From assembly GCF_016793705.1 (NCBI RefSeq), contig NZ_JAEULO010000067.1, forward strand, positions 1-63,337: a DNA stretch of 63,337 nt, read 5' to 3'. The first letter of the stretch is position 1; each line of letters starts with the position of its first letter. Of the stretch, positions 2,653 to 46,734 are shown one piece after another. The DNA comes from Tabrizicola sp. (GTDB lineage Bacteria > Pseudomonadota > Alphaproteobacteria > Rhodobacterales > Rhodobacteraceae). The translations under genes and the position numbers were made by a program. Under the pieces are notes generated by a model. It worked only from the letters and a program-made list of their open reading frames with translations, made no database searches and was not told where the DNA came from.

Positions 2653-3603
2653 ATGCGTGTCGTGGTCTTTCTGGTCGTGCTCGTCGCCGTGGCGCTGGTG
2701 GGCTATGTCGGCATCAGCGGTTTCTTCCTGGCCCATACCGCGGCGGGCCTGCTGACGGTCGGGCCCCTTGCCGCCGCGCTGGCGACAGCCGAACCGCCGA
2801 GCGATCCGCTCGCGCTCGGCTACCGGGGCGATCCGATGGCGGCGCTTTCGCTGCCGTTCGAGACGGTCTCGCTGGCGACGCCCCTCGGCCCGGCCGAGGC
2901 CTGGCTTGTCCCCGCGGAGGGCGCCGAAGTGGGCCGCGCGGTCTATGTCCACGGCATCGCCGGCGCGCGGGAGGACGGCTATCGCGCGTTGTCCATCCTG
3001 CACGAGGCAGGGTGGTCCGTGCTCCTCATCACCTATCGCAACGACCCCGGCGCCCCGGCCAGCCCCGATGGCAGCTACGGTTTCGGCCTGACCGAATGGC
3101 CCGACCTGGAAGCCGCCGTCGCGGAACTGGCCCCCTCGGACAGCGACCCGAAACTCCTGATCGTCGCCGAGTCGATGGGCGGCGCGATTCTCGGCCAGTT
3201 CCTGATGCAAAGCCCGCTTGCCACCCGCGTGCAGGCTGTCGCCCTCGACAGCCCGGCAATCAGCTTCGGTGCCGTCATCAACCATCTCGCCGTACAGGGT
3301 GGCAAGCCCCTTCCCCGGCTCGTCTCCTGGGCGGCGCAACAGATGCTGACCGTCATCTCTCCCCTGCCTCTCGCCCGGTCGGACGTCGCCGCCGCCTTCG
3401 CTGCCTTCCCCGGGCCGCTGTTCCTAGCCCATGGCAGCGCCGACCGCATCGTGCCCATCGGCCCCTCGCAAGCCCTCGCCGCCGCCCGCAGCGTGCCGAC
3501 CGTCAGCCTCTGGACCGGCGCCGACCACCTCGGCTCTTATGCCGAGGATCCGCAGGCCTACCGCGCCGCCTTCCGGGACTTCCTGGCACAGCTTTCACCC
3601 TGA
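2653..3603 (+). CDS. Membrane-anchored alpha/beta hydrolase
   Basis: 316 residues with an N-terminal hydrophobic helix (about 3-25) that could anchor it in the membrane facing the periplasm. Hydrolase features in order: the oxyanion loop VYVHGIAGAREDG, the nucleophile elbow VAESMGGA (an AxSxG variant of GxSxG), an acid in AHGSADRIVP and the His in TGADHLGSY. The triad is therefore complete and the protein is probably an active serine hydrolase of unknown substrate. It lies between the ctaD terminator and a DUF2244 gene that starts 6 bp after its stop, so the two are likely co-transcribed. Confidence 0.8.
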   Translation: MRVVVFLVVLVAVALVGYVGISGFFLAHTAAGLLTVGPLAAALATAEPPSDPLALGYRGDPMAALSLPFETVSLATPLGPAEAWLVPAEGAEVGRAVYVHGIAGAREDGYRALSILHEAGWSVLLITYRNDPGAPASPDGSYGFGLTEWPDLEAAVAELAPSDSDPKLLIVAESMGGAILGQFLMQSPLATRVQAVALDSPAISFGAVINHLAVQGGKPLPRLVSWAAQQMLTVISPLPLARSDVAAAFAAFPGPLFLAHGSADRIVPIGPSQALAAARSVPTVSLWTGADHLGSYAEDPQAYRAAFRDFLAQLSP

Positions 3604-3609
3604 CGGCCC

Positions 3610-4095
3610 ATGCCCTATGAATGGCTCCCCTCCGAGAGCGAAACCCACCGGCTGCATCTCTGGCCGCACCGTTCGCTGACGCAGCGCGGCTTCGTCTGGT
3701 TCGTCGGCCTCACCGCCGCGCTGATCGCCGTGCCGCTGTTCGCCCATCTTGGCAGCCCCGTCCTCTGGGCGCTCCTTCCCTTCCTCGTGGGCACGATCTG
3801 GGCGATCTGGTTCGCCCTGCGCAAGAACGGCCGCGACCGCGACATCGTCGAGGAGCTGACGCTTTCCCCCGACCGCATCACGCTGGTGCGCCACGGGCCG
3901 GGGGGCAAGCGGCAGGACTGGGAGGCGAACCCCTACTGGCTGCGCGTCACCCTGCATCAGACCGGCGGCCCGGTGCCGAACTACCTGACGCTGAAGGGCG
4001 AGGGCCGCGAGGTGGAACTTGGCGCCTTCCTGTCGGAAGAGGAGCGTGTGGCGTTGAAGGACGAACTGCAGGACCGCATCGCCCGGCTGCGTTGA
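3610..4095 (+). CDS. DUF2244 family inner-membrane protein
   Basis: 161 residues with two adjacent hydrophobic helices at about 28-66 (FVWFVGLTAALIAVPLF and LWALLPFLVGTIWAIWFAL), then a soluble beta-rich domain with DIVEELTLSPDRITLVRHGP and NYLTLKGEGREVELGAFLSEEER. This fold order (two TM helices plus a PH-like sheet) and length fit DUF2244, a family often found near alphaproteobacterial oxidase genes. The biochemical role is unknown; an accessory role in oxidase biogenesis is only suggested by position. Confidence 0.72.
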   Translation: MPYEWLPSESETHRLHLWPHRSLTQRGFVWFVGLTAALIAVPLFAHLGSPVLWALLPFLVGTIWAIWFALRKNGRDRDIVEELTLSPDRITLVRHGPGGKRQDWEANPYWLRVTLHQTGGPVPNYLTLKGEGREVELGAFLSEEERVALKDELQDRIARLR

Positions 4096-4133
4096 CTGCC
4101 CTTCGCCCCGGCTCGCTTCCAAGGGGCCGGCGC

Positions 4134-4592
4134 CTACCCCAGCCGCGCCTTGACCAGCGCGCCGACCGCGCCGAAATCCATCTGGCCGGTGTAGCGCGCC
4201 TTCAAGGCCGCCATCACCTTGCCCACGTCGCGGATCGAGGCCGCCCCCGTCTCGGCCACCGCCGCATCGACCGCCGCCGCAACCTCGGCCTGATCCATCT
4301 GGCGCGGCAGGAATTCCTGGATCACCCCGATCTCGGCCAGTTCCTTCTCGGCCAGCTCCAGCCGCCCACCCTCTTCATAGGCGCGGGCTGATTCCTGCCG
4401 CTGCTGCACCATCTTGCCCATGATCTGAAGGATCTCGGCCTCGCCGACCTCGCCGCCGTCCGCTTCGCCCCGCACGGCGATCTCGCGGTCCTTGATGGCG
4501 GCGTTGATCAGGCGCAGCGTCGACAGCCGGTCGGCCTCCTTCGCCTTCATGGCCTCTTTCAGGGCCGTCTGCAGACGGTCGCGCAAAAGCAT
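4134..4592 (-). CDS. GatB/YqeY domain protein
   Basis: 152 residues starting MLLRDRLQTALKEAMKAKEADRLSTLRLI, the diagnostic N-terminus of YqeY-type proteins, and ending with the helical YqeY tail (IRDVGKVMAALKARYTGQMD). The fold matches the C-terminal tRNA-binding domain of GatB and is thought to act on tRNA amidation, but the true role is unsettled. Start at 4592 is chosen because the longer frame adds a non-conserved 21-residue leader. It is divergent from carA, and the AT-rich 180-bp gap between them should hold both promoters. Confidence 0.88.
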   Translation of the reverse strand: MLLRDRLQTALKEAMKAKEADRLSTLRLINAAIKDREIAVRGEADGGEVGEAEILQIMGKMVQQRQESARAYEEGGRLELAEKELAEIGVIQEFLPRQMDQAEVAAAVDAAVAETGAASIRDVGKVMAALKARYTGQMDFGAVGALVKARLG

Positions 4593-39782: not shown

Positions 39783-40086
39783 TCCGCCCATCTCCGCGAT
39801 ACCCTGCAAAGCCAAGGGTGCGCCCTGGCCCACCCGCCGACAAGTCCTCGCCCCCGATTTCGCAAGCACTCTGCCTGCCGCCCGCGCCAGCCCATGGGAA
39901 CGCCACACCTTCCCTTCCTCTTGGTCCTGATATTCCCTTCACGCGCCCCCCACGCCCCCGGCCGCCAGCTCCCTCGCGACGAGAAGACGCAGTCGCACGA
40001 GGAGCCTCCCCGCGACAGAAAACCCGGTTGCGCCCGGAGCGATTTCCTCGAAAGCTGCCCGCACACCCTTCAACCGGACCACCACC
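39783..40086. other. Intergenic gap between divergent genes
   Basis: 304 bp between the divergent YhhN-like and AlkB-like genes. It is C-rich on the plus strand, with no convincing ORF, RNA or repeat. It must contain both promoters, but no clear -35/-10 pair stands out. Confidence 0.5.
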
Positions 40087-41145
40087 CTGACCCGTCCCCT
40101 CTCCCTTGCCGCCTTCGCTGCAGCCTCGCTCCTGCCGCTCGCCCTCCTCGGCCTTGGCCTGACCCTCGGGGGCGCATGGCTCTGGGCCGCCTTCCTCTAC
40201 ATGGCCTGCCTCGGCCTCCTCCTCGACCAGCTCATCCCGCTCGTCCCCGGCCAGGCCGAGGGCACCGAATTCCCCGCCGCCGACCTCCTCCTGATCGCCA
40301 TCGGCCTCGGCGCACTTGCCCTCCTTCCCGCCGCCACCTGGGCCATCGCCGGAGCCTCTCCTCTCACCCCCGCGCAACGGTTCCTCGCCTTCCTCGCGAC
40401 CGGCTTCTGGCTTGGCCAGGTCGTCCACCCCGCCGCGCACGAACTTATTCACCGCCCGCAGCGCGCCCTCTTCCGCCTCGGCGCCACGGTCTACGCAGCC
40501 CTCCTCTTCGGACAGCACACCAGCGCCCACCGCCTTGTCCACCACCGCGCCGTCGCCACGCCGGACGACCCGAACTCCGCCCGGGCCGGGGAAAGCTTCT
40601 ACCGCTTCGCCCGCCGCGCCTGGATCGGCAGCTTCCGGCAGGGAGCCCGCGCCGAATCCGCTCTCCGCGCCGGCCGCGCGGGCCTCCACCCCTATGCCAC
40701 CTGGCTTGCCATCAGCGCCGCCGCACTGATCCTCGCCACCCTTGTCGCGGGCCTGCCCGGGTTCCTAGCCTGGACCGGCCTCGCGCTTCACGCGCAAAGC
40801 CAGGTCCTCCTCTCCGACTATGTCCAGCACTACGGCCTGACCCGCGCCCGCCTGCCCGACGGCCGGTACGAACCGGTCGGCCCCGCCCACAGCTGGAACA
40901 CCGCGCACTGGTTCACTTCGGCGATGATGCTGAACGCGCCGCGCCATTCCGACCACCATGTCCATCCCGCGCGCCCCTATCCCGCGCTGCGCCTGACCGA
41001 CGCGGCGCCCCGCCTGCCCTGGCCGCTGCCGCTCGCCTGCGCCATGGCGCTTGCCCCCCGGCTCTGGCGCCGCGCCATGGCCCCCCATCTCGCCCGATGG
41101 CGGGAATCCAGACCTGTGGACACCCCAGAAGACACGGCGGCTTGA
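40087..41145 (+). CDS. AlkB-like membrane hydroxylase (alkane 1-monooxygenase family)
   Basis: About 352 residues if it starts at the CTG at 40087; the first in-frame ATG is 40201. Residues coded before 40201 (TRPLSLAAFAAASLLPLALL and GGAWLWAAFLY) form the first TM hairpin expected of the family, which supports the longer protein. Di-iron histidine motifs: HELIHRP, GQHTSAHRLVHH, APRHSDHHVHP, and NTAHW. ATPDDPNSARAGESFYRF is a family block. Members hydroxylate alkanes or fatty chains with O2. 56 bp separate it from the seven-gene secreted-protein array, so they may share a transcript. Confidence 0.75.
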   Translation: MTRPLSLAAFAAASLLPLALLGLGLTLGGAWLWAAFLYMACLGLLLDQLIPLVPGQAEGTEFPAADLLLIAIGLGALALLPAATWAIAGASPLTPAQRFLAFLATGFWLGQVVHPAAHELIHRPQRALFRLGATVYAALLFGQHTSAHRLVHHRAVATPDDPNSARAGESFYRFARRAWIGSFRQGARAESALRAGRAGLHPYATWLAISAAALILATLVAGLPGFLAWTGLALHAQSQVLLSDYVQHYGLTRARLPDGRYEPVGPAHSWNTAHWFTSAMMLNAPRHSDHHVHPARPYPALRLTDAAPRLPWPLPLACAMALAPRLWRRAMAPHLARWRESRPVDTPEDTAA

Positions 41146-41201
41146 CTGGCCAATCCCGCGCCGCTCTGGCACTCTGACGCCCAGTCCAACGGAGCCCCCG
41201 G

Positions 41202-41594
41202 ATGCGTGCCCTTTTCCTTGTCCTTGCCCTTGCCACCACCCCGGCGCTTGCCGAAACCCCGCTCGACGCCGACCAGTTCGACTCCGCCACCCGCGGCGAC
41301 ACCATCACCTACGATTATGGCAACGGCCTCTTCGGCACCGAGGAGTACCTTGACGGCCGCCGCGTCCGCTGGGCCTTCGAGGGCGACCTCTGCATCTATG
41401 GCGTCTGGTATCAGAAGGGCGACGAGATCTGCTTCGAGTACGAGGATGACCCCACCCCCGCCTGCTGGCTGTATTTCCTGGAGAGCGACCGGATCAGGGG
41501 CCGCTACATGGGCGAGGGCGGCGGCTGGGAGATCCTGGAGTCGTCCCGCGAAGGCGGTCCCCTGCCCTGCGCCGGGCCCGATGTCGGCGTCTAG
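41202..41594 (+). CDS. Array protein 1: secreted Cys4 protein, unknown
   Basis: 130 residues. Signal MRALFLVLALATTPALAE, then the array pattern: TPLDADQF, GRRVRWAFEGDLC, GVWYQKGDEICFEYEDDP, ACWLYF and LPCAGPDVGV at the C-terminus. Four Cys (DLC, EIC, ACW, LPC) recur in all seven members and probably form two disulfides in the periplasm. Four bases separate it from the next gene. GGAG lies before the ATG. No known family is recognised with confidence. Confidence 0.8.
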   Translation: MRALFLVLALATTPALAETPLDADQFDSATRGDTITYDYGNGLFGTEEYLDGRRVRWAFEGDLCIYGVWYQKGDEICFEYEDDPTPACWLYFLESDRIRGRYMGEGGGWEILESSREGGPLPCAGPDVGV

Positions 41595-41598
41595 GGCG

Positions 41599-41991
41599 AT
41601 GCGCACAGCCCTTGTCCTCGGCGCGGTGCTGACCGGCCCGGCCCAAGCCGAACCGCCGATGACGGCTGCCGAATTCTCCGCCTATGTCGGCACCGACACG
41701 CTCACCTACGGCTACAGCACTGGCATCGTCGGCATCGCCGCTTACGGCCCCGACCAGACGCTGGTCTGGCGCTATGAAGGCAGCGACTGTGTCAACGGCC
41801 GCTATTACCAGTCGGGCGACGAGATCTGCTTCAGCTTTGAGGTCAGGGAAATATCGGTCTGCTGGCATTTCGCTCTGGGCTCCGGTCGGCTGCATGGCAC
41901 GGCCACCAACACCCCCGGCAACGACCGCATCTTCGAGATCGGCCGCTCCGACCGCCCGCTCGACTGTCCCGATCTCCGACCGGGAGTGTGA
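41599..41991 (+). CDS. Array protein 2: secreted Cys4 protein, unknown
   Basis: 130 residues. Signal MRTALVLGAVLTGPAQAE; PMTAAEFSAYV; SDCVNGRYYQSGDEICFSFE; SVCWHF; LDCPDLRPGV. All four Cys are kept. It is the most diverged copy in the middle (GIAAYGPDQTLVW instead of YLPGRKVRW). ATG 41599 lies in frame inside a longer open frame whose upstream part is a shadow of array gene 1. Confidence 0.78.
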   Translation: MRTALVLGAVLTGPAQAEPPMTAAEFSAYVGTDTLTYGYSTGIVGIAAYGPDQTLVWRYEGSDCVNGRYYQSGDEICFSFEVREISVCWHFALGSGRLHGTATNTPGNDRIFEIGRSDRPLDCPDLRPGV

Positions 41992-41995
41992 AGCG

Positions 41996-42397
41996 ATGTG
42001 TCTGAAGACGCTTCCCGTTCTTCCCGCCCTCCTCCTCGCCGCTCCGGCGCTGGCCGAGACCCCGATGACCGGCGAGGAGTTCGAGGCCTACGTGACCGGG
42101 AAGACCATGGACTACTTCGCCGACGGCCAGACCTTCGGGCGCGAGGTCTACCTGCCCGGTCGCAAGGTCCGCTGGGCCTATACTGCCGACGAGTGCAAGA
42201 TCGGGCACTGGTTCGCCGAAGGCGAGACCATCTGCTTCCTTTACGACGGTGACCCCGAGTCGAAATGCTGGATCATCTGGCCCGATGGCCAAGGCCTCTC
42301 CGCCAGCTACATGACCGACACCCCCGACATCGCGCCGCGCACCGTGCGCGAGACGACCGAACCGCTCGCCTGCCCCGGCCCCGATGTGGGAGTGTGA
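41996..42397 (+). CDS. Array protein 3: secreted Cys4 protein, unknown
   Basis: 133 residues. Signal MCLKTLPVLPALLLAAPALAE; TPMTGEEFEAYVTGKTMDY; YLPGRKVRWAYTADEC; GHWFAEGETICFLYDGDP; KCWIIW; EPLACPGPDVGV. It shares ETTEPLAC with array protein 6 and VTGKT with array protein 4, pointing to exchange or recent common ancestry among members. Gap of 4 bp to each neighbour. Confidence 0.8.
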   Translation: MCLKTLPVLPALLLAAPALAETPMTGEEFEAYVTGKTMDYFADGQTFGREVYLPGRKVRWAYTADECKIGHWFAEGETICFLYDGDPESKCWIIWPDGQGLSASYMTDTPDIAPRTVRETTEPLACPGPDVGV

Positions 42398-42401
42398 CCC
42401 G

Positions 42402-42800
42402 ATGCTCCGCCCGACCGTTGCCCTCGCGCTCTTCTTCCTGGCCACTCCCTCCCTTGCCGAAACCCCGATCACGGCCGAGGTCTTCGAGGCCCATGTCACC
42501 GGCAAGACCCTGACCTATCGCCAGTTCGGCAACCTCTTCGGGATCGAGCAATACCTGCCAGACCGCAAGGTCCGCTGGTCGACCGCGCCGAACGAATGCC
42601 AGTATGGCAGCTGGTATCCGCAGGGCGAGAACATCTGCTTCGTCTACGAATACGATCCCACCCCTGCCTGCTGGACCTTCTGGATGAAGGACGGCGCCTT
42701 GGTGGCGCTTTCCACCAGCGGCGTCGCGGGCGAGGAGCTGCACGAGGTCGACGCCTCCGACCAGGGCCTGCCCTGCCCCGGGCCCGACGTGGGGGTCTGA
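42402..42800 (+). CDS. Array protein 4: secreted Cys4 protein, unknown
   Basis: 132 residues from MLRPTVALALFFLATPSLAE. TPITAEVFEAHVTGKTLTY; GNLFGIEQYLPDRKVRW; NECQYGSWYPQGENICFVYEYDP; ACWTFW; LPCPGPDVGV. The start is 42402 rather than the upstream ATG 42384, since only this gives a signal peptide and the usual 4-bp spacing. Its stop shares a base with the next start (TGATG). Confidence 0.8.
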   Translation: MLRPTVALALFFLATPSLAETPITAEVFEAHVTGKTLTYRQFGNLFGIEQYLPDRKVRWSTAPNECQYGSWYPQGENICFVYEYDPTPACWTFWMKDGALVALSTSGVAGEELHEVDASDQGLPCPGPDVGV

Positions 42801-43186
42801 TGCTGCGCGCCGCCCTAAGCCTTGTCTGCCTCGCCACGGCGGCCGCTGCGGAAACTCCGATGACCGTCGCCGAGTTCGAAGCCTGGTCGACCGGCCGGAC
42901 GCTAGACTACTTCGTCGACGGCGCGCTCTGGGGCAGCGAGATGCACCTGGCAGGTCGCGCCACCGTCGATGCGGATGCGGGCGGGATCTGCCGGTCGGGT
43001 CATTGGTATCCGCAAGGCGACGACGTCTGCTTCGTCTACGATCTCAATCCCGGCCCCTATTGCTGGCGCTTCTTCCGGGACGGCGATCAGGTCCGCGCCG
43101 AATTCCTGGGCGAAGCCTTTGCCGACACTATCACCATCACCCTCTCCGACGCAGCAATCCCCTGTACCCCCGAGGTGGGGGTCTGA
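42800..43186 (+). CDS. Array protein 5: secreted Cys4 protein, unknown
   Basis: 128 residues. Signal MLRAALSLVCLATAAAAE; TPMTVAEFEAWSTGRTLDY; GGICRSGHWYPQGDDVCFVYDLNP; YCWRFF; IPCTPEVGV. The YLPGRKVRW block is replaced by HLAGRATVD. Translation is coupled to array gene 4 by TGATG, and one base separates it from gene 6. Confidence 0.8.
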   Translation: MLRAALSLVCLATAAAAETPMTVAEFEAWSTGRTLDYFVDGALWGSEMHLAGRATVDADAGGICRSGHWYPQGDDVCFVYDLNPGPYCWRFFRDGDQVRAEFLGEAFADTITITLSDAAIPCTPEVGV

Positions 43187-43187
43187 C

Positions 43188-43577
43188 ATGCGCGCTTTCC
43201 TCGTCCTTCTCCTCTCCGTCACCCCGGCGCTTGCCGAACCCCTCGTCACCGCCGAGGAATTCGATGCCCTCACCCTGGGCCGCACGATGACCTGGTCCGA
43301 ATTCGGCGCGGTCTACGGCGTGGAGCAATATCTGCCGGGTCGCAAGGTGCGCTGGACGGTCCTCGGCGACGATTGCAAGACCGGCCACTGGTATCAGGAC
43401 GGGACGGCGATCTGCTTCCAGTATGAAGACGACATCGCGCCCGACTGCTGGGAGATCACCGCCTCCGGCCCCGATCTTCTGGCCCGCTACACCACCAACC
43501 CGCCCGAGGCCGACCCCGTGATCGTGACCGAAACCACCGAGCCCCTCGCCTGCTTCGGCCCCGAGGTCGGCGCCTGA
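43188..43577 (+). CDS. Array protein 6: secreted Cys4 protein, unknown
   Basis: 129 residues. Signal MRAFLVLLLSVTPALAE; LVTAEEFDALTLGRTMTW; YGVEQYLPGRKVRWTVLGDDC; GHWYQDGTAICFQYEDD; DCWEI; EPLACFGPEVGA. Closest by eye to array members 3 and 4. It overlaps the last member by one base (TGATG). Confidence 0.8.
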   Translation: MRAFLVLLLSVTPALAEPLVTAEEFDALTLGRTMTWSEFGAVYGVEQYLPGRKVRWTVLGDDCKTGHWYQDGTAICFQYEDDIAPDCWEITASGPDLLARYTTNPPEADPVIVTETTEPLACFGPEVGA

Positions 43578-43984
43578 TGCGTGCGCTTGTTTTCGCACTC
43601 CTGCTTCTGCCCGCCGTCGCCCTTGCCGAAGGCACCGCGCCGCAACCCGCCGATCCCCCGATGACCGCCGAAGCCTTCGAGCGTTTCGTTCAGGGCCGCA
43701 CCATGGACACCCACGACCGGACCGGCCGCTACGGGGTGGAGACCTTCCTCCCCGGCCGCCGCGCGATCTGGCGCGATGCGGCGCAATGCCTGGAAGGCAG
43801 CTGGCGTCCGCAAGGCGACCAGATCTGCTTCGACTACCGGGGAATCGACACGCCCTATTGCTGGACCTACCACGACCGCGGCGGCTGGCTGATGGCCTGG
43901 CTCGACGGCAACCGCGCGGGTGAAGCGATCATGCTCTATCCGGCGGAAGAGGTGGTCACCTGCGAAGGGTTTCTAGGAGCTTAG
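43577..43984 (+). CDS. Array protein 7: secreted Cys4 protein, unknown
   Basis: 135 residues. Signal MRALVFALLLLPAVALAE, an extra GTAPQPADP linker, then PMTAEAFERFVQGRTMDTH; FLPGRRAIW; AQCLEGSWRPQGDQICFDY; YCWTYH; VTCEGFLGA. The C-terminal CPGPDVGV block is degenerate. Its stop overlaps by 4 bp the stop of the low-GC gene on the other strand, which marks the end of the array. Confidence 0.8.
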   Translation: MRALVFALLLLPAVALAEGTAPQPADPPMTAEAFERFVQGRTMDTHDRTGRYGVETFLPGRRAIWRDAAQCLEGSWRPQGDQICFDYRGIDTPYCWTYHDRGGWLMAWLDGNRAGEAIMLYPAEEVVTCEGFLGA

Positions 43985-44700
43985 TGATCACCTGACATTT
44001 GCAAAGCGAGGTATGTCTCAATCTCGATGGCCACTTCCTCGTATGGTACGGAGAACCATTCGGCACCAAAGCCATTTTCAATGCGACGTGACCCAAATCG
44101 CCTATGCAGAAAGGTTTCCAGCCCTACCTCTCTGTCGGTTCTGGCAATGACGCGAAGAACGGGGTGGCCCGGATTTCCTGTTGAGTATTGGCTCAGAATT
44201 CGTCGCAGAACCTCACCCCCGCCGCTTCGGTCATGCCGACCGATTTTGGTGCATTTGTCACCCAGACGATCAAGCCTCGAGTCGGTGTAGACGTAGACAG
44301 CCCGCGAGCCTTCTCCGATGACGGTCGCCTGCGCGACGATCTCTTTGGCCCGAACCGAGAGTGCCCGATTACCCCCAAACTCGATTTCGATGGCAACCGC
44401 GGCTTCAAGCTCGATCCTGACCGTGGACCACGACGAAAGCATACCGTCTTTCGACAGATGCACTACCTTGCCTTTTGCAAAGCCATTTCTCATCAGAGTC
44501 CAAATGGCCGCTGATCGGATGTCATCTTTCCAGCCTTTACCATCGTCAAAATGGAAGGGCGCGCCGATTCTGTCCGCATAGCGATCAATAACTTCGTCTA
44601 CCGACGTTGGCATATCGCCGTTCGTGACATCCTCTATCAAGAGCGGCGCGACCGCGCGCTGAAGAGGTCGGATCGCGCGAATAACATCTGCCGTCTTCAT
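43981..44700 (-). CDS. Winged-helix-like plus GIY-YIG/T5orf172-like protein, low GC
   Basis: 239 residues. Residues about 1-90 resemble an Mrr-type N-terminal winged helix (VDEVIDRYADRIGA, RSAAIWTLMRNGFAKG). Residues about 131-225 read AVYVYTD, TKIGRHDRSGG, STGNPGHPVLRVI, LETFLHRRFGSRR, GAEWFSVP. This is the T5orf172/Mug113 pattern of the GIY-YIG superfamily, with candidate catalytic Arg155 and Glu195. By my count a sampled 60-bp line is 50% GC, against about 68-70% in neighbours, which suggests transfer. It lies alone, convergent with the array. A nuclease role, perhaps in defence, is an inference. Confidence 0.65.
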   Translation of the reverse strand: MKTADVIRAIRPLQRAVAPLLIEDVTNGDMPTSVDEVIDRYADRIGAPFHFDDGKGWKDDIRSAAIWTLMRNGFAKGKVVHLSKDGMLSSWSTVRIELEAAVAIEIEFGGNRALSVRAKEIVAQATVIGEGSRAVYVYTDSRLDRLGDKCTKIGRHDRSGGGEVLRRILSQYSTGNPGHPVLRVIARTDREVGLETFLHRRFGSRRIENGFGAEWFSVPYEEVAIEIETYLALQMSGDH

Positions 44701-44788
44701 CGTTTATCCCACCTCTACAAGCTAGCGCTCCATTCGGTAGTGAACCATCTTGCTCGAAATTCGCCGAAAATATGACTGTGCCGGAACG

Positions 44789-46348
44789 TCAGAACAGGCT
44801 CCCCTGCCCGCTCTCCCCGTCCCCCTTCGGCCGCTTGCCGGCCCGGCCCCCGACCGGAAGCCGCCCGTCCCGGAACTCGATCTCCAGCGCCGAGGCCCTC
44901 TCCGCCGCCGCCTTCGAAGTGACGACCGCCCCGTCCCCCCGCACGACCGCATAGCCCCGCTTCAGGGTCGCCGCGTAGCCCAGCGTCGCCCGCGTCCGGT
45001 CCAGCGCCTCCAGCCGGTCATTGAGCCGCGCGAAGCGGGTGGCGGGCGCCGCTTCCAGCCGCTCGGAAAGCCGCGCCAGATCGCGCCGCCCCTCCGCCGT
45101 CTTCCGCCCCGCATCGCCCAGCATCCGGGCCAGCGCCGGAGCCAGCCGCGCCGCCAGCGCCTCCAGCCGCTCCCCCCGCCGCTCCAGCCGCAGAAGCACC
45201 GCCCGCCCCAGCCGCTCCCCGCGCGAGGTCAGCATATCCCCCTGACGCGCCAGCCCGGCCCGCAGCGCCTGCGGCTGCAACCGCCCCGCCAGCCGGTCGA
45301 ACTCCCGGTGCTTCTTCGCGACCGCCAGCCCCAGCCCGGTCCCGAGCCGCAGCGCCCCCGCGTCCAGCCGCTGCCGAGGGGTTGCGACCAGCACCTCCAC
45401 GCGCGGCAAGGCCCGCGACAGATCGCGCAGCCGCTGCCGCCGCAGCACCACCCCCTGCCCGATCCCGCGCACCAGTCGCGCGCCCAGCGCCTCCAGCGTC
45501 GCCAGAAGCTCCAGTCGCACCGGCACCGCCAGCTCTGCCGCAGCCGTGGGCGTCGGCGCGCGCAGGTCGGCGGCGAAGTCGATCAGCGTCGTGTCGGTCT
45601 CATGCCCGACGGCCGAGATCAGCGGGATCGCCGACGCCGCCGCCGCCCGCACGACGATCTCCTCGTTGAAACCCCAGAGGTCCTCCAGCGACCCGCCGCC
45701 CCGTGCCACGATCAGCACGTCGGGGCGCGGGATCGCCCCGCCCTCGGGCAGCGCGTTGAAGCCCCGGATCGCGGCGGCCACCTGCGCCGCGCAGTCCTGC
45801 CCCTGCACCGCCACCGGCCAGACCAGCACATGCCGGGGAAAGCGGTCTCGCAGCCGATGCAGGATGTCCCGGATCACCGCGCCACTGGGAGACGTCACCA
45901 CCCCGATCACCCGCGGCAGATAGGGGATGGCCTTCTTCCCTGCGGCGTCGAACAGCCCCTCCGCCGCCAGCGCGGCGCGGCGCTTCTCCAGCATCGCCAT
46001 CAAGGCGCCCGCCCCCGCCGGGGCCACGTCCTCGACGATCAGCTGGTATTTTGATTGGCCGGGAAAGGTGGTCATCCGCCCGGTGGCGACCACCTCCATC
46101 CCCTCCTCGGGCCGGACCTGCATCCGCGACACCTGGCCCTTCCAGCTGATCGCCGCGATCACCGCCCGGTCGTCCTTCAGGTCGAAATACAAGTGCCCCG
46201 AGGCCGGTCGCGACACCCGTCCCACCTCGCCCCGGACCCGCACCAGCCCGAACTCACCCTCGATCACCCGCTTCACCGCGCCCGAAAGCTCGGAGACGGT
46301 GTATTCCGGCTGGTTGCCCGGCGGGGCGGGATCGTCGATCAGGTCCAT
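44789..46348 (-). CDS. xseA: Exodeoxyribonuclease VII large subunit
   Basis: 519 residues. The N-terminal OB fold (YTVSELSGAVKRVIEGEFG, VRGEVGRVSRPASGHLYFDLKD) binds DNA; the catalytic centre has GVVTSPSGAVIRDIL, RPDVLIVARGGGSLEDLWGFN and PLISAVGHETDTTLIDFAADLRAPTP (the Asp/His signature). A long coiled coil (about 300-460) and the closing GYAVVRGDG follow. It cuts single-stranded DNA with XseB, which is not in this window. Confidence 0.96.
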   Translation of the reverse strand: MDLIDDPAPPGNQPEYTVSELSGAVKRVIEGEFGLVRVRGEVGRVSRPASGHLYFDLKDDRAVIAAISWKGQVSRMQVRPEEGMEVVATGRMTTFPGQSKYQLIVEDVAPAGAGALMAMLEKRRAALAAEGLFDAAGKKAIPYLPRVIGVVTSPSGAVIRDILHRLRDRFPRHVLVWPVAVQGQDCAAQVAAAIRGFNALPEGGAIPRPDVLIVARGGGSLEDLWGFNEEIVVRAAAASAIPLISAVGHETDTTLIDFAADLRAPTPTAAAELAVPVRLELLATLEALGARLVRGIGQGVVLRRQRLRDLSRALPRVEVLVATPRQRLDAGALRLGTGLGLAVAKKHREFDRLAGRLQPQALRAGLARQGDMLTSRGERLGRAVLLRLERRGERLEALAARLAPALARMLGDAGRKTAEGRRDLARLSERLEAAPATRFARLNDRLEALDRTRATLGYAATLKRGYAVVRGDGAVVTSKAAAERASALEIEFRDGRLPVGGRAGKRPKGDGESGQGSLF

Positions 46349-46479
46349 GGCGCATTGATGCCCCGGCCCGGGCCGGGTTGCAACACGGGGCCGGGGTGAC
46401 GGCGCAGTGGTTTCAACCGGCGGGGCAGGTTAAACTTCGGTCACGAGCCGTGTCACCCTCCCGCCGCAGGTCCCGACCG

Positions 46480-46734
46480 ATGTTCCGCAACCCCGCCCTT
46501 CCTGCAATCCTTGCGGCGCTTCCGGCGATGGGCGAACTCACCCTTGCGTCCCCGGCATTCGCACAGGACTGCGACCCGAACTATTCCGGCAAATGCGTCC
46601 CCGTCGCGTCGGACGTCGACTGCGCCGGGGGAAACGGCAACGGGCCTGCCTATGTGGATGGGCCGGTCTATGTCGTCGGCAGCGACATCTACGGGCTGGA
46701 CCGGGACGGCGATGGTGTGGCCTGCGACAGGTAG
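46480..46734 (+). CDS. Secreted excalibur-like calcium-binding protein
   Basis: 84 residues. Signal peptide (about 1-28, ending ASPAFAQ), then DCDPNYSGKCVPVASDVDC and the excalibur signature LDRDGDGVACDR. The DxDxDG loop resembles an EF-hand calcium site, with Cys that pair. Excalibur domains are found in extracellular proteins of unclear role. It is divergent from xseA. Confidence 0.8.
   Translation: MFRNPALPAILAALPAMGELTLASPAFAQDCDPNYSGKCVPVASDVDCAGGNGNGPAYVDGPVYVVGSDIYGLDRDGDGVACDR

Follow-up and report, generated by a model that had tools for sequence, protein, structure and literature searches.

The stretch of DNA analysed here, called the window in the following, comprises 63,337 nucleotides of Tabrizicola sp. 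(contig NZ_JAEULO010000067.1) and carries on its forward strand, between positions 41202 and 43984, an array of seven consecutive genes for small secreted proteins with four conserved cysteines. The array is an old tandem expansion of one gene, made in place and found genus-wide, and several of its lineages reach other genera. The family has no model in the libraries searched; its fold type and its kind, i.e., paralogous small secreted proteins, are already known. New are the unmodelled family itself, the fixed order of seven paralogue lineages within one array and the finding that a single locus has been expanded recurrently. We give about an even chance to the array proteins being non-enzymatic periplasmic binders, made together from one mRNA, each lineage having become specialised for a partner or ligand of its own before the genus arose.

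The genes were designated copies 1 to 7 in their order, and each represents a paralogue type of the same number. Copy 1 (41202..41594, 130 amino acids) is a secreted four-cysteine protein with a predicted barrel, copy 2 (41599..41991, 130 amino acids) belongs to a sporadic and fast-evolving type and copy 3 (41996..42397, 133 amino acids) to a rare one. They are followed by copy 4 (42402..42800, 132 amino acids), copy 5 (42800..43186, 128 amino acids), copy 6 (43188..43577, 129 amino acids) and copy 7 (43577..43984, 135 amino acids), the last with the longest stem branch. The gaps between successive genes are +4, +4, +4, -1, +1 and -1 bp. A first-pass annotation of this DNA had described seven adjacent Sec-type genes for four-cysteine proteins of 128-135 residues, spaced by -1 to +4 bp; the open reading frames (ORFs) and their coordinates, the alignment and the expectation (E) values all agree with this. 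All seven proteins begin with a signal peptide with an [A/S]xA-E cleavage site, and none of them has a lipobox, both as read by eye. The four cysteines of the mature part are invariant in 7/7 window copies, as had been noticed, and also in 91/91 aligned family members; copies 3 and 5 have an extra cysteine within the signal peptide. In the full-length alignment the copies show 33-44% identity to copy 1 and share 13 invariant columns, including the four cysteines, and copy 4 matches the other six, well beyond chance, with E values from 6.6e-35 to 5e-20. Apart from the seven array proteins, the 3.84 Mb assembly (94.5% complete) contains no family match. The motifs described as common to all copies hold as a family pattern but not letter for letter: copy 2 reads YGPDQTLVW and CVNGRYY, copy 5 has HLAGRATVDA in place of YLPGRKVRW and is thus without the RW of that motif, copy 7 reads CLEGSWR, and the C-x-GP-x-VGV ending is not present in copies 2, 5, 6 and 7. 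The ten residues invariant in the 91-member alignment are Cys, Gly, Phe and Trp, and make up no catalytic set. Within this shared frame each type has conserved residues of its own according to a consensus table (without statistical test), e.g., the type 1 run around RGRYMGEGGGWEI and the loss of the RW pair in type 5 (consensus only).

The same lineages were found throughout the genus. Of 32 Tabrizicola genomes, 31 have a match and 28 have 3-8 matches, some of them outside the array and several of the genomes being incomplete. We compared 31 array loci from 30 genomes (the window, L038 and L183-L211; loci are numbered with L and genomes with G), with G576 (two matches, the listed one weak and on another contig) and G582 (no match) left out. 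The genus tree was built quickly and without bootstraps from 130 columns, with 153 array proteins (the 31 loci plus G022, G285 and G166) and 14 single-copy proteins, excluding pieces below 90 amino acids and the duplicate genome L104. The locus of L104, from Tabrizicola aquatica, has five copies. It resolves seven paralogue lineages, six of which (types 1, 2, 3, 4, 6 and 7) are clades with Shimodaira-Hasegawa-like approximate likelihood ratio test (SH-aLRT) support of 96-100. Type 1 (31 rows, support 98, one row from L201 assigned by hand) is present in 31/31 genus loci, and type 4 (30 rows, 100) in 29/31, the remaining two being single-copy contig ends. Types 6 and 7 comprise 24 rows each (96 and 100, respectively), type 2 seven rows (99) and type 3 three rows (98), the latter occurring in only two loci besides the window. 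Type 5 consists of subclades 5a (89) and 5b (94), whose union is weak (81). The order 1-2-3-4-5-6-7, with members missing, was kept in 29/29 multi-copy genus loci; L191 has one additional type-7-like copy, and one of the L038 copies could not be assigned to any type. In the other genus genomes the genes mostly lie -4 to +6 bp apart, but distances of up to 382 bp occur. Stop codons break two of the array members of L200 (G584, positions 2762-4304), an instance of loss by decay. The longer gaps in L183, L204, L208 and L185 were considered as broken copies; only L208 gave a weak remnant (best E 0.001), and two translated frames from the L183 gap look unlike the family.

The lineages have stayed apart from each other. 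When sequence windows of 60 nucleotides were compared, 16/2501 resembled a paralogue of different type in the same genome more closely than any orthologue of their own type, and none of these at 85% identity or more; recent gene conversion between copies was rejected accordingly. The first-pass annotation had proposed such a check, and had seen a hint of partial exchange in the word ETTEPLAC. This word is indeed shared by copies 3 and 6, but it is not a recent exchange tract, since the two copies spell it with different codons at several synonymous positions, and identical or similar words occur in copies of these types from other genomes. The median within-type identity is 78% for type 1, the slowest-evolving type, 67% for type 7, 64% for types 4 and 6, 65% for type 3 (three rows), 61% for 5b, 50% for 5a and 47% for type 2. 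Median identities to the window copy are 81% for type 1, 70% for type 7, 67% for type 4, 66% for type 6, 50% for 5a and 47% for type 2; the corresponding values for neighbouring proteins in the genus loci are 74% for the AlkB-like protein (28 loci), 81% for FtsY (15) and 86% for XseA (21). Most types thus evolve faster than the neighbours; the rate of type 1 is close to that of FtsY. The median within-type ratio of nonsynonymous (dN) to synonymous (dS) divergence, omega, was 0.16-0.50 for pairs with dS of 0.1-1.2 only, and since dS is saturated, only the ranking of these values is useful. The dS among within-genome paralogues (0.58-1.00) is similar to the orthologue medians (0.72-1.01); because dS saturates under GC-rich codon use, dN/dS is unusable for positive selection. 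As far as saturated dS permits, selection within the lineages looks purifying. Ongoing selection for variety, which had been suggested for the array, disagrees with the same-type orthologues found for most copies, with the order fixed in all multi-copy loci and with the lack of recent exchange. Fixed order, shared lineages, no recent exchange and purifying-looking selection argue for a set that is stable and specialised and loses members sporadically, and against an actively shuffled variety generator.

Several of the lineages reach beyond Tabrizicola. In a more careful tree of 60 rows (support given as bootstrap/SH-aLRT), type 1 groups with G285 and G022 (99/94), type 2 with G022 (99/90), type 4 with G285 (99/98), type 6 with G022 (100/92) and type 7 with G178 (100/97); the grouping of type 5 with G022 is poorly supported (96/69) and the placement of type 3 was not resolved. 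There are also separate amplifications elsewhere, as three of the four G032 copies form one clade (100/98), and so do the two G314 copies (100/98). Arrays of 2-4 copies adjoin FtsY or XseA in G206, G093, G032 and G178, and in G058 five copies share a 17 kb stretch on which neither FtsY nor XseA gave a match. A broader picture, which we hold to be rather doubtful, would make the ftsY-xseA locus of Rhodobacteraceae a site where a single-copy binder is recurrently amplified. The resulting sets, ordered and fixed in a genus, would consist of specific inhibitors or receptors from an undescribed superfamily of disulfide barrels in the periplasm, each lineage with its own target. Recurrent expansion at one chromosomal locus allows a test of what drives the tandem amplification of binders.

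The family is a widespread gene of Rhodobacteraceae, mostly with one match per genome. A match at E <=0.001 was found in 241/295 sampled Rhodobacteraceae genomes, of which 189 have one match and 52 have at least two anywhere in the genome. The first-pass annotation had named as a possible objection that other genomes always hold a single copy and that the array is a drift product; most other genera do have one match, but the expansion is old and genus-wide, and arrays recur. The locus of a species named Tabrizicola rongguiensis (L072), possibly a member of the window's genus, has one copy, which speaks against a simple picture. In a sample of the order, 46/61 genomes matched, all 61 being Rhodobacteraceae, and in a sample of the class 5/240, i.e., three Rhodobacteraceae (one of them the window's own genome) and two distant genomes (E 1.6e-5 and 7.3e-4). 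A scan of a genome collection confirmed at least 365 stretches; the titles of the best 80 of these name Rhodobacteraceae or Paracoccaceae, genera which we take to belong there, broad alphaproteobacterial labels of metagenome-assembled genomes, and one Enemella. This last contig (L070, labelled Enemella evansiae, which we take to be an actinobacterium) carries a typical Rhodobacteraceae member and is probably contaminated or mislabelled. Further four-cysteine relatives were seen outside the array (L212, L213, L214, L215, L216, L217, L220 and L222, E about 1e-16 to 1e-23), of which L213 is a tandem pair and L212, the one of its group tested, has no Pfam name. Mobile or viral spread of the family was considered and rejected: with the single-copy relative L122 as query, 1/72,556 plasmid records matched, a 1.58 Mb Pseudorhodobacter replicon; phage records gave no match to copy 4, and 0/157 pattern matches of the single-copy profile in viral contigs were confirmed. 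Rhodobacteraceae are abundant in the sea, and a secreted family present in about four fifths of their sampled genomes matches no family model searched.

The mature part of copy 4 was modelled with AlphaFold on a 91-row alignment (predicted local distance difference test, pLDDT, 90.0; predicted template modelling score, pTM, 0.82) and copy 7 on a 58-row alignment (pLDDT 92.7, pTM 0.84), and both models are confident and have one helix and eight strands. The strands are predicted to close into an antiparallel barrel, judging from the kind of structures matched by Foldseek. None of the matches of the two models in the PDB reached E <=0.001, nor was there a match to viral structures at this threshold. 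The leading matches were potempin E, lipocalins, avidins, biotin-carboxylase-type chains, TP0435, and DUF4847 and DUF4909 proteins. The cysteines would form the disulfides C60-C71 and C47-C106 (mature numbering of copy 4), the first of them common to a wider superfamily; we infer this pairing since relatives without C47 are also without C106, while the C60/C71 pair stays. Such relatives are L147, L148, L218 and L219 and the DUF995 proteins L142 and L143. The first four, whose profiles score 38.8-53.7 against the family compared with shuffle maxima of 15.8-19.6, constitute a two-cysteine branch of small secreted proteins with a GN-P/A-x-N-F/L-like end from Rhodobacteraceae and further alphaproteobacterial groups; a Pfam scan of three of them gave no match.

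Database searches gave no name for the family. Neither Pfam nor NCBIfam matched any of the seven proteins at E <=1, and a Pfam scan of the 91 members gave stray weak matches only, each in at most 3/91. One of these was DUF995 (PF06191, uncharacterised), in 1/91 members at E 0.068. Profile comparison, which rests on one DUF995 protein (L142), puts DUF995 among the distant kin of the family, with the cysteine pair in register: the hhalign score of the family profile was 33.9 for the whole of L142 (probability 59%), 26.2 for its repeat 1 (29%) and 34.0 for its repeat 2 (76%), against maxima of 17.4, 17.8 and 18.7, respectively, in 60 shuffles each. DUF995 proteins resemble the array family in being small and secreted, with an N-terminal helix-like stretch, a GKT/GNT strand, a GxW and a spaced cysteine pair, C-x10-C in both repeats of L142. 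They differ in having two cysteines per domain in the proteins compared, against four in the array family, and no family member is over the Pfam cut-off for DUF995 (0/7 at E 1). A search of PHROGs found nothing significant (5 proteins, best E 0.11), PADLOC matched 0/7 array proteins at E 0.01, and the best match of the family profile among PDB sequences was an unrelated enzyme (E 0.22). The titles and abstract openings in the literature searched say nothing on the family and give no function for it; DUF995 is named in a single paper there, and only once.

The array could have arisen and work as follows. One periplasmic protein gene of Rhodobacteraceae would have been expanded in place at the locus ftsY - alkB-like - [gene] - xseA - purD. 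The products would be made together from one mRNA, and each would leave the cytoplasm through Sec, lose its signal peptide to signal peptidase I and fold into a helix and an eight-stranded antiparallel barrel stabilised by disulfides. Types 1 and 4 would be the core, while the other types would be accessory, coming and going by loss. That the proteins bind, and that each lineage has a different partner, we infer from the lineages with constant order, from the lineages shared with other genera, from single-copy relatives at the same locus and from the type-specific residues; in addition, an inhibitor and ligand carriers are among the solved structures closest to the models, although these matches are weak. 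Several points weigh against this interpretation. The weakness of the Foldseek matches means that a barrel alone does not prove binding. The single mRNA is deduced only from gene spacing. Residues E30, R36 and E96 are near-invariant in the 91-member alignment, and with these Glu and Arg residues the proteins may yet be enzymes. Conservation within types may come partly from recent common ancestry in one genus, and the fast evolution of types 2 and 5, with some copies broken or missing, would also be expected from relaxed redundancy. If the lineages are specialised binders, seven pre-sorted paralogues with type-specific residues make partner specificity readable by comparing the copies.

The leading specific form of the binder reading is enzyme inhibition, in which seven barrels would plug seven cognate periplasmic peptidases or lysozymes in the manner of potempins or Inh; we regard it as possible but tentative. 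Copy 4 has potempin E of Tannerella forsythia (PotE, 8EHC) as its top PDB match (E 8e-3, template modelling score, TM, 0.48/0.55), and for copy 7 it ranks fifth (E 1.9e-2), with TM over both models of 0.47-0.58. The potempins, a set of related inhibitors, are small secreted barrels, as is predicted for the array proteins. According to PMC7296668, they are small lipoproteins, each specific for one co-expressed protease whose gene it directly precedes; they are an example of related secreted inhibitors with one protease each. The small size of the array proteins, their cysteines and the divergence of the paralogues would fit as well. However, the array proteins have a cleavable signal without lipobox, no protease gene adjoins the array in the window, and the genomic pairing of the potempin type is absent. 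Potempin E never came at E <=0.001, lipocalins and others score about equally, and the family profile found neither a potempin at E up to 10 nor another solved inhibitor among PDB sequences. Inh and MliC are periplasmic barrels with a disulfide; both models (PF02974 and PF09864, respectively) are absent from the Pfam matches of the seven proteins (E <=1), and no Pfam inhibitor model was matched in the 91 members at E <=0.1. Lipocalin- and avidin-type calycins and TP0435 (4U3Q) are likewise barrels, with TM of about 0.4-0.65 to the array models. The lipocalin signature is a GxW at the first strand, whereas the first strand of the array family reads GKTLTY, and there is no sequence match.

A redundant dosage array, in which all copies do the same job and drift under weak constraint, is unlikely in our judgement. 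It would agree with the one match in most other genera, with the fast types 2 and 5 and with copies lost or broken in several species, but it leaves the constant order, the long-lived separate lineages and the type-specific conserved residues unexplained, and type 1 is strongly conserved (median 81% to the window copy, against 74% for the AlkB-like protein). We see even less ground for the array proteins as accessories of the adjoining AlkB-like membrane hydroxylase/desaturase that would deal, in the periplasm, with the lipid or hydrocarbon substrate of this enzyme. An AlkB-like gene lies on the same strand, -20 to 300 bp upstream of the family gene, in 81/113 loci (one genome counted twice, as L104 and L183), a close homologue (E <=1e-60) is present in 133/241 family-positive against 16/54 family-negative genomes (kinship uncorrected), and lipocalin-type carriers are among the fold matches. 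On the other hand, an AlkB match at E 1e-15 is absent in 23/113 loci (of which 19 have 5 kb or more of sequence upstream), 16 family-negative genomes keep a homologue, and L257 has an array at a locus without the gene. The AlkB-like gene is a usual neighbour and was rejected as an obligate partner. An immunity-like repertoire had been among the roles proposed at first; such a set, or one of decoys, directed at phages or the toxins of rivals and under selection for variety, appears very improbable. Seven divergent secreted paralogues in one unit and the recurrent tandem amplification in the family would suit it, but the stable order and orthology and the lack of recent exchange speak against it, the searches with PADLOC (all seven), phage records (copy 4) and viral contigs (single-copy profile) gave no support, and no toxin gene is found among the immediate neighbours scanned.

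The surroundings of the array are largely conserved. In a comparison of 22 loci with the window, the block consists of intracellular septation protein A, FtsY, the AlkB-like desaturase, the family gene, XseA on the opposite strand and PurD, some loci being without some of these genes. In the window the neighbours are FtsY, YhhN, the desaturase, a MUG113/GIY-YIG-like protein, XseA and PurD, and the earlier remark that no partner gene is visible holds for this set. The AlkB-like membrane desaturase/hydroxylase gene (40201..41145, forward strand; PF00487 FA_desaturase, E 1.7e-24) lies 56 bp upstream of the array, as had been reported, and is possibly on the array transcript. A scan of positions 40000-44900 for the sigma-70 consensus found no promoter, and a search of 40900-44200 found no Rfam element. 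The MUG113/T5orf172 (GIY-YIG-like) gene at 43981-44700 on the reverse strand is placed between the array and xseA, convergent with copy 7 and overlapping its end. A search of 113 other loci, some of which end before xseA, found no relative at E 1e-15, so that this gene is probably a local insertion. Further downstream, a small ORF at 46378-46734 on the forward strand has a possible signal peptide and a cysteine-bearing end, GLDRDGDGVACDR, which we take to resemble a calcium-binding end of the excalibur type.

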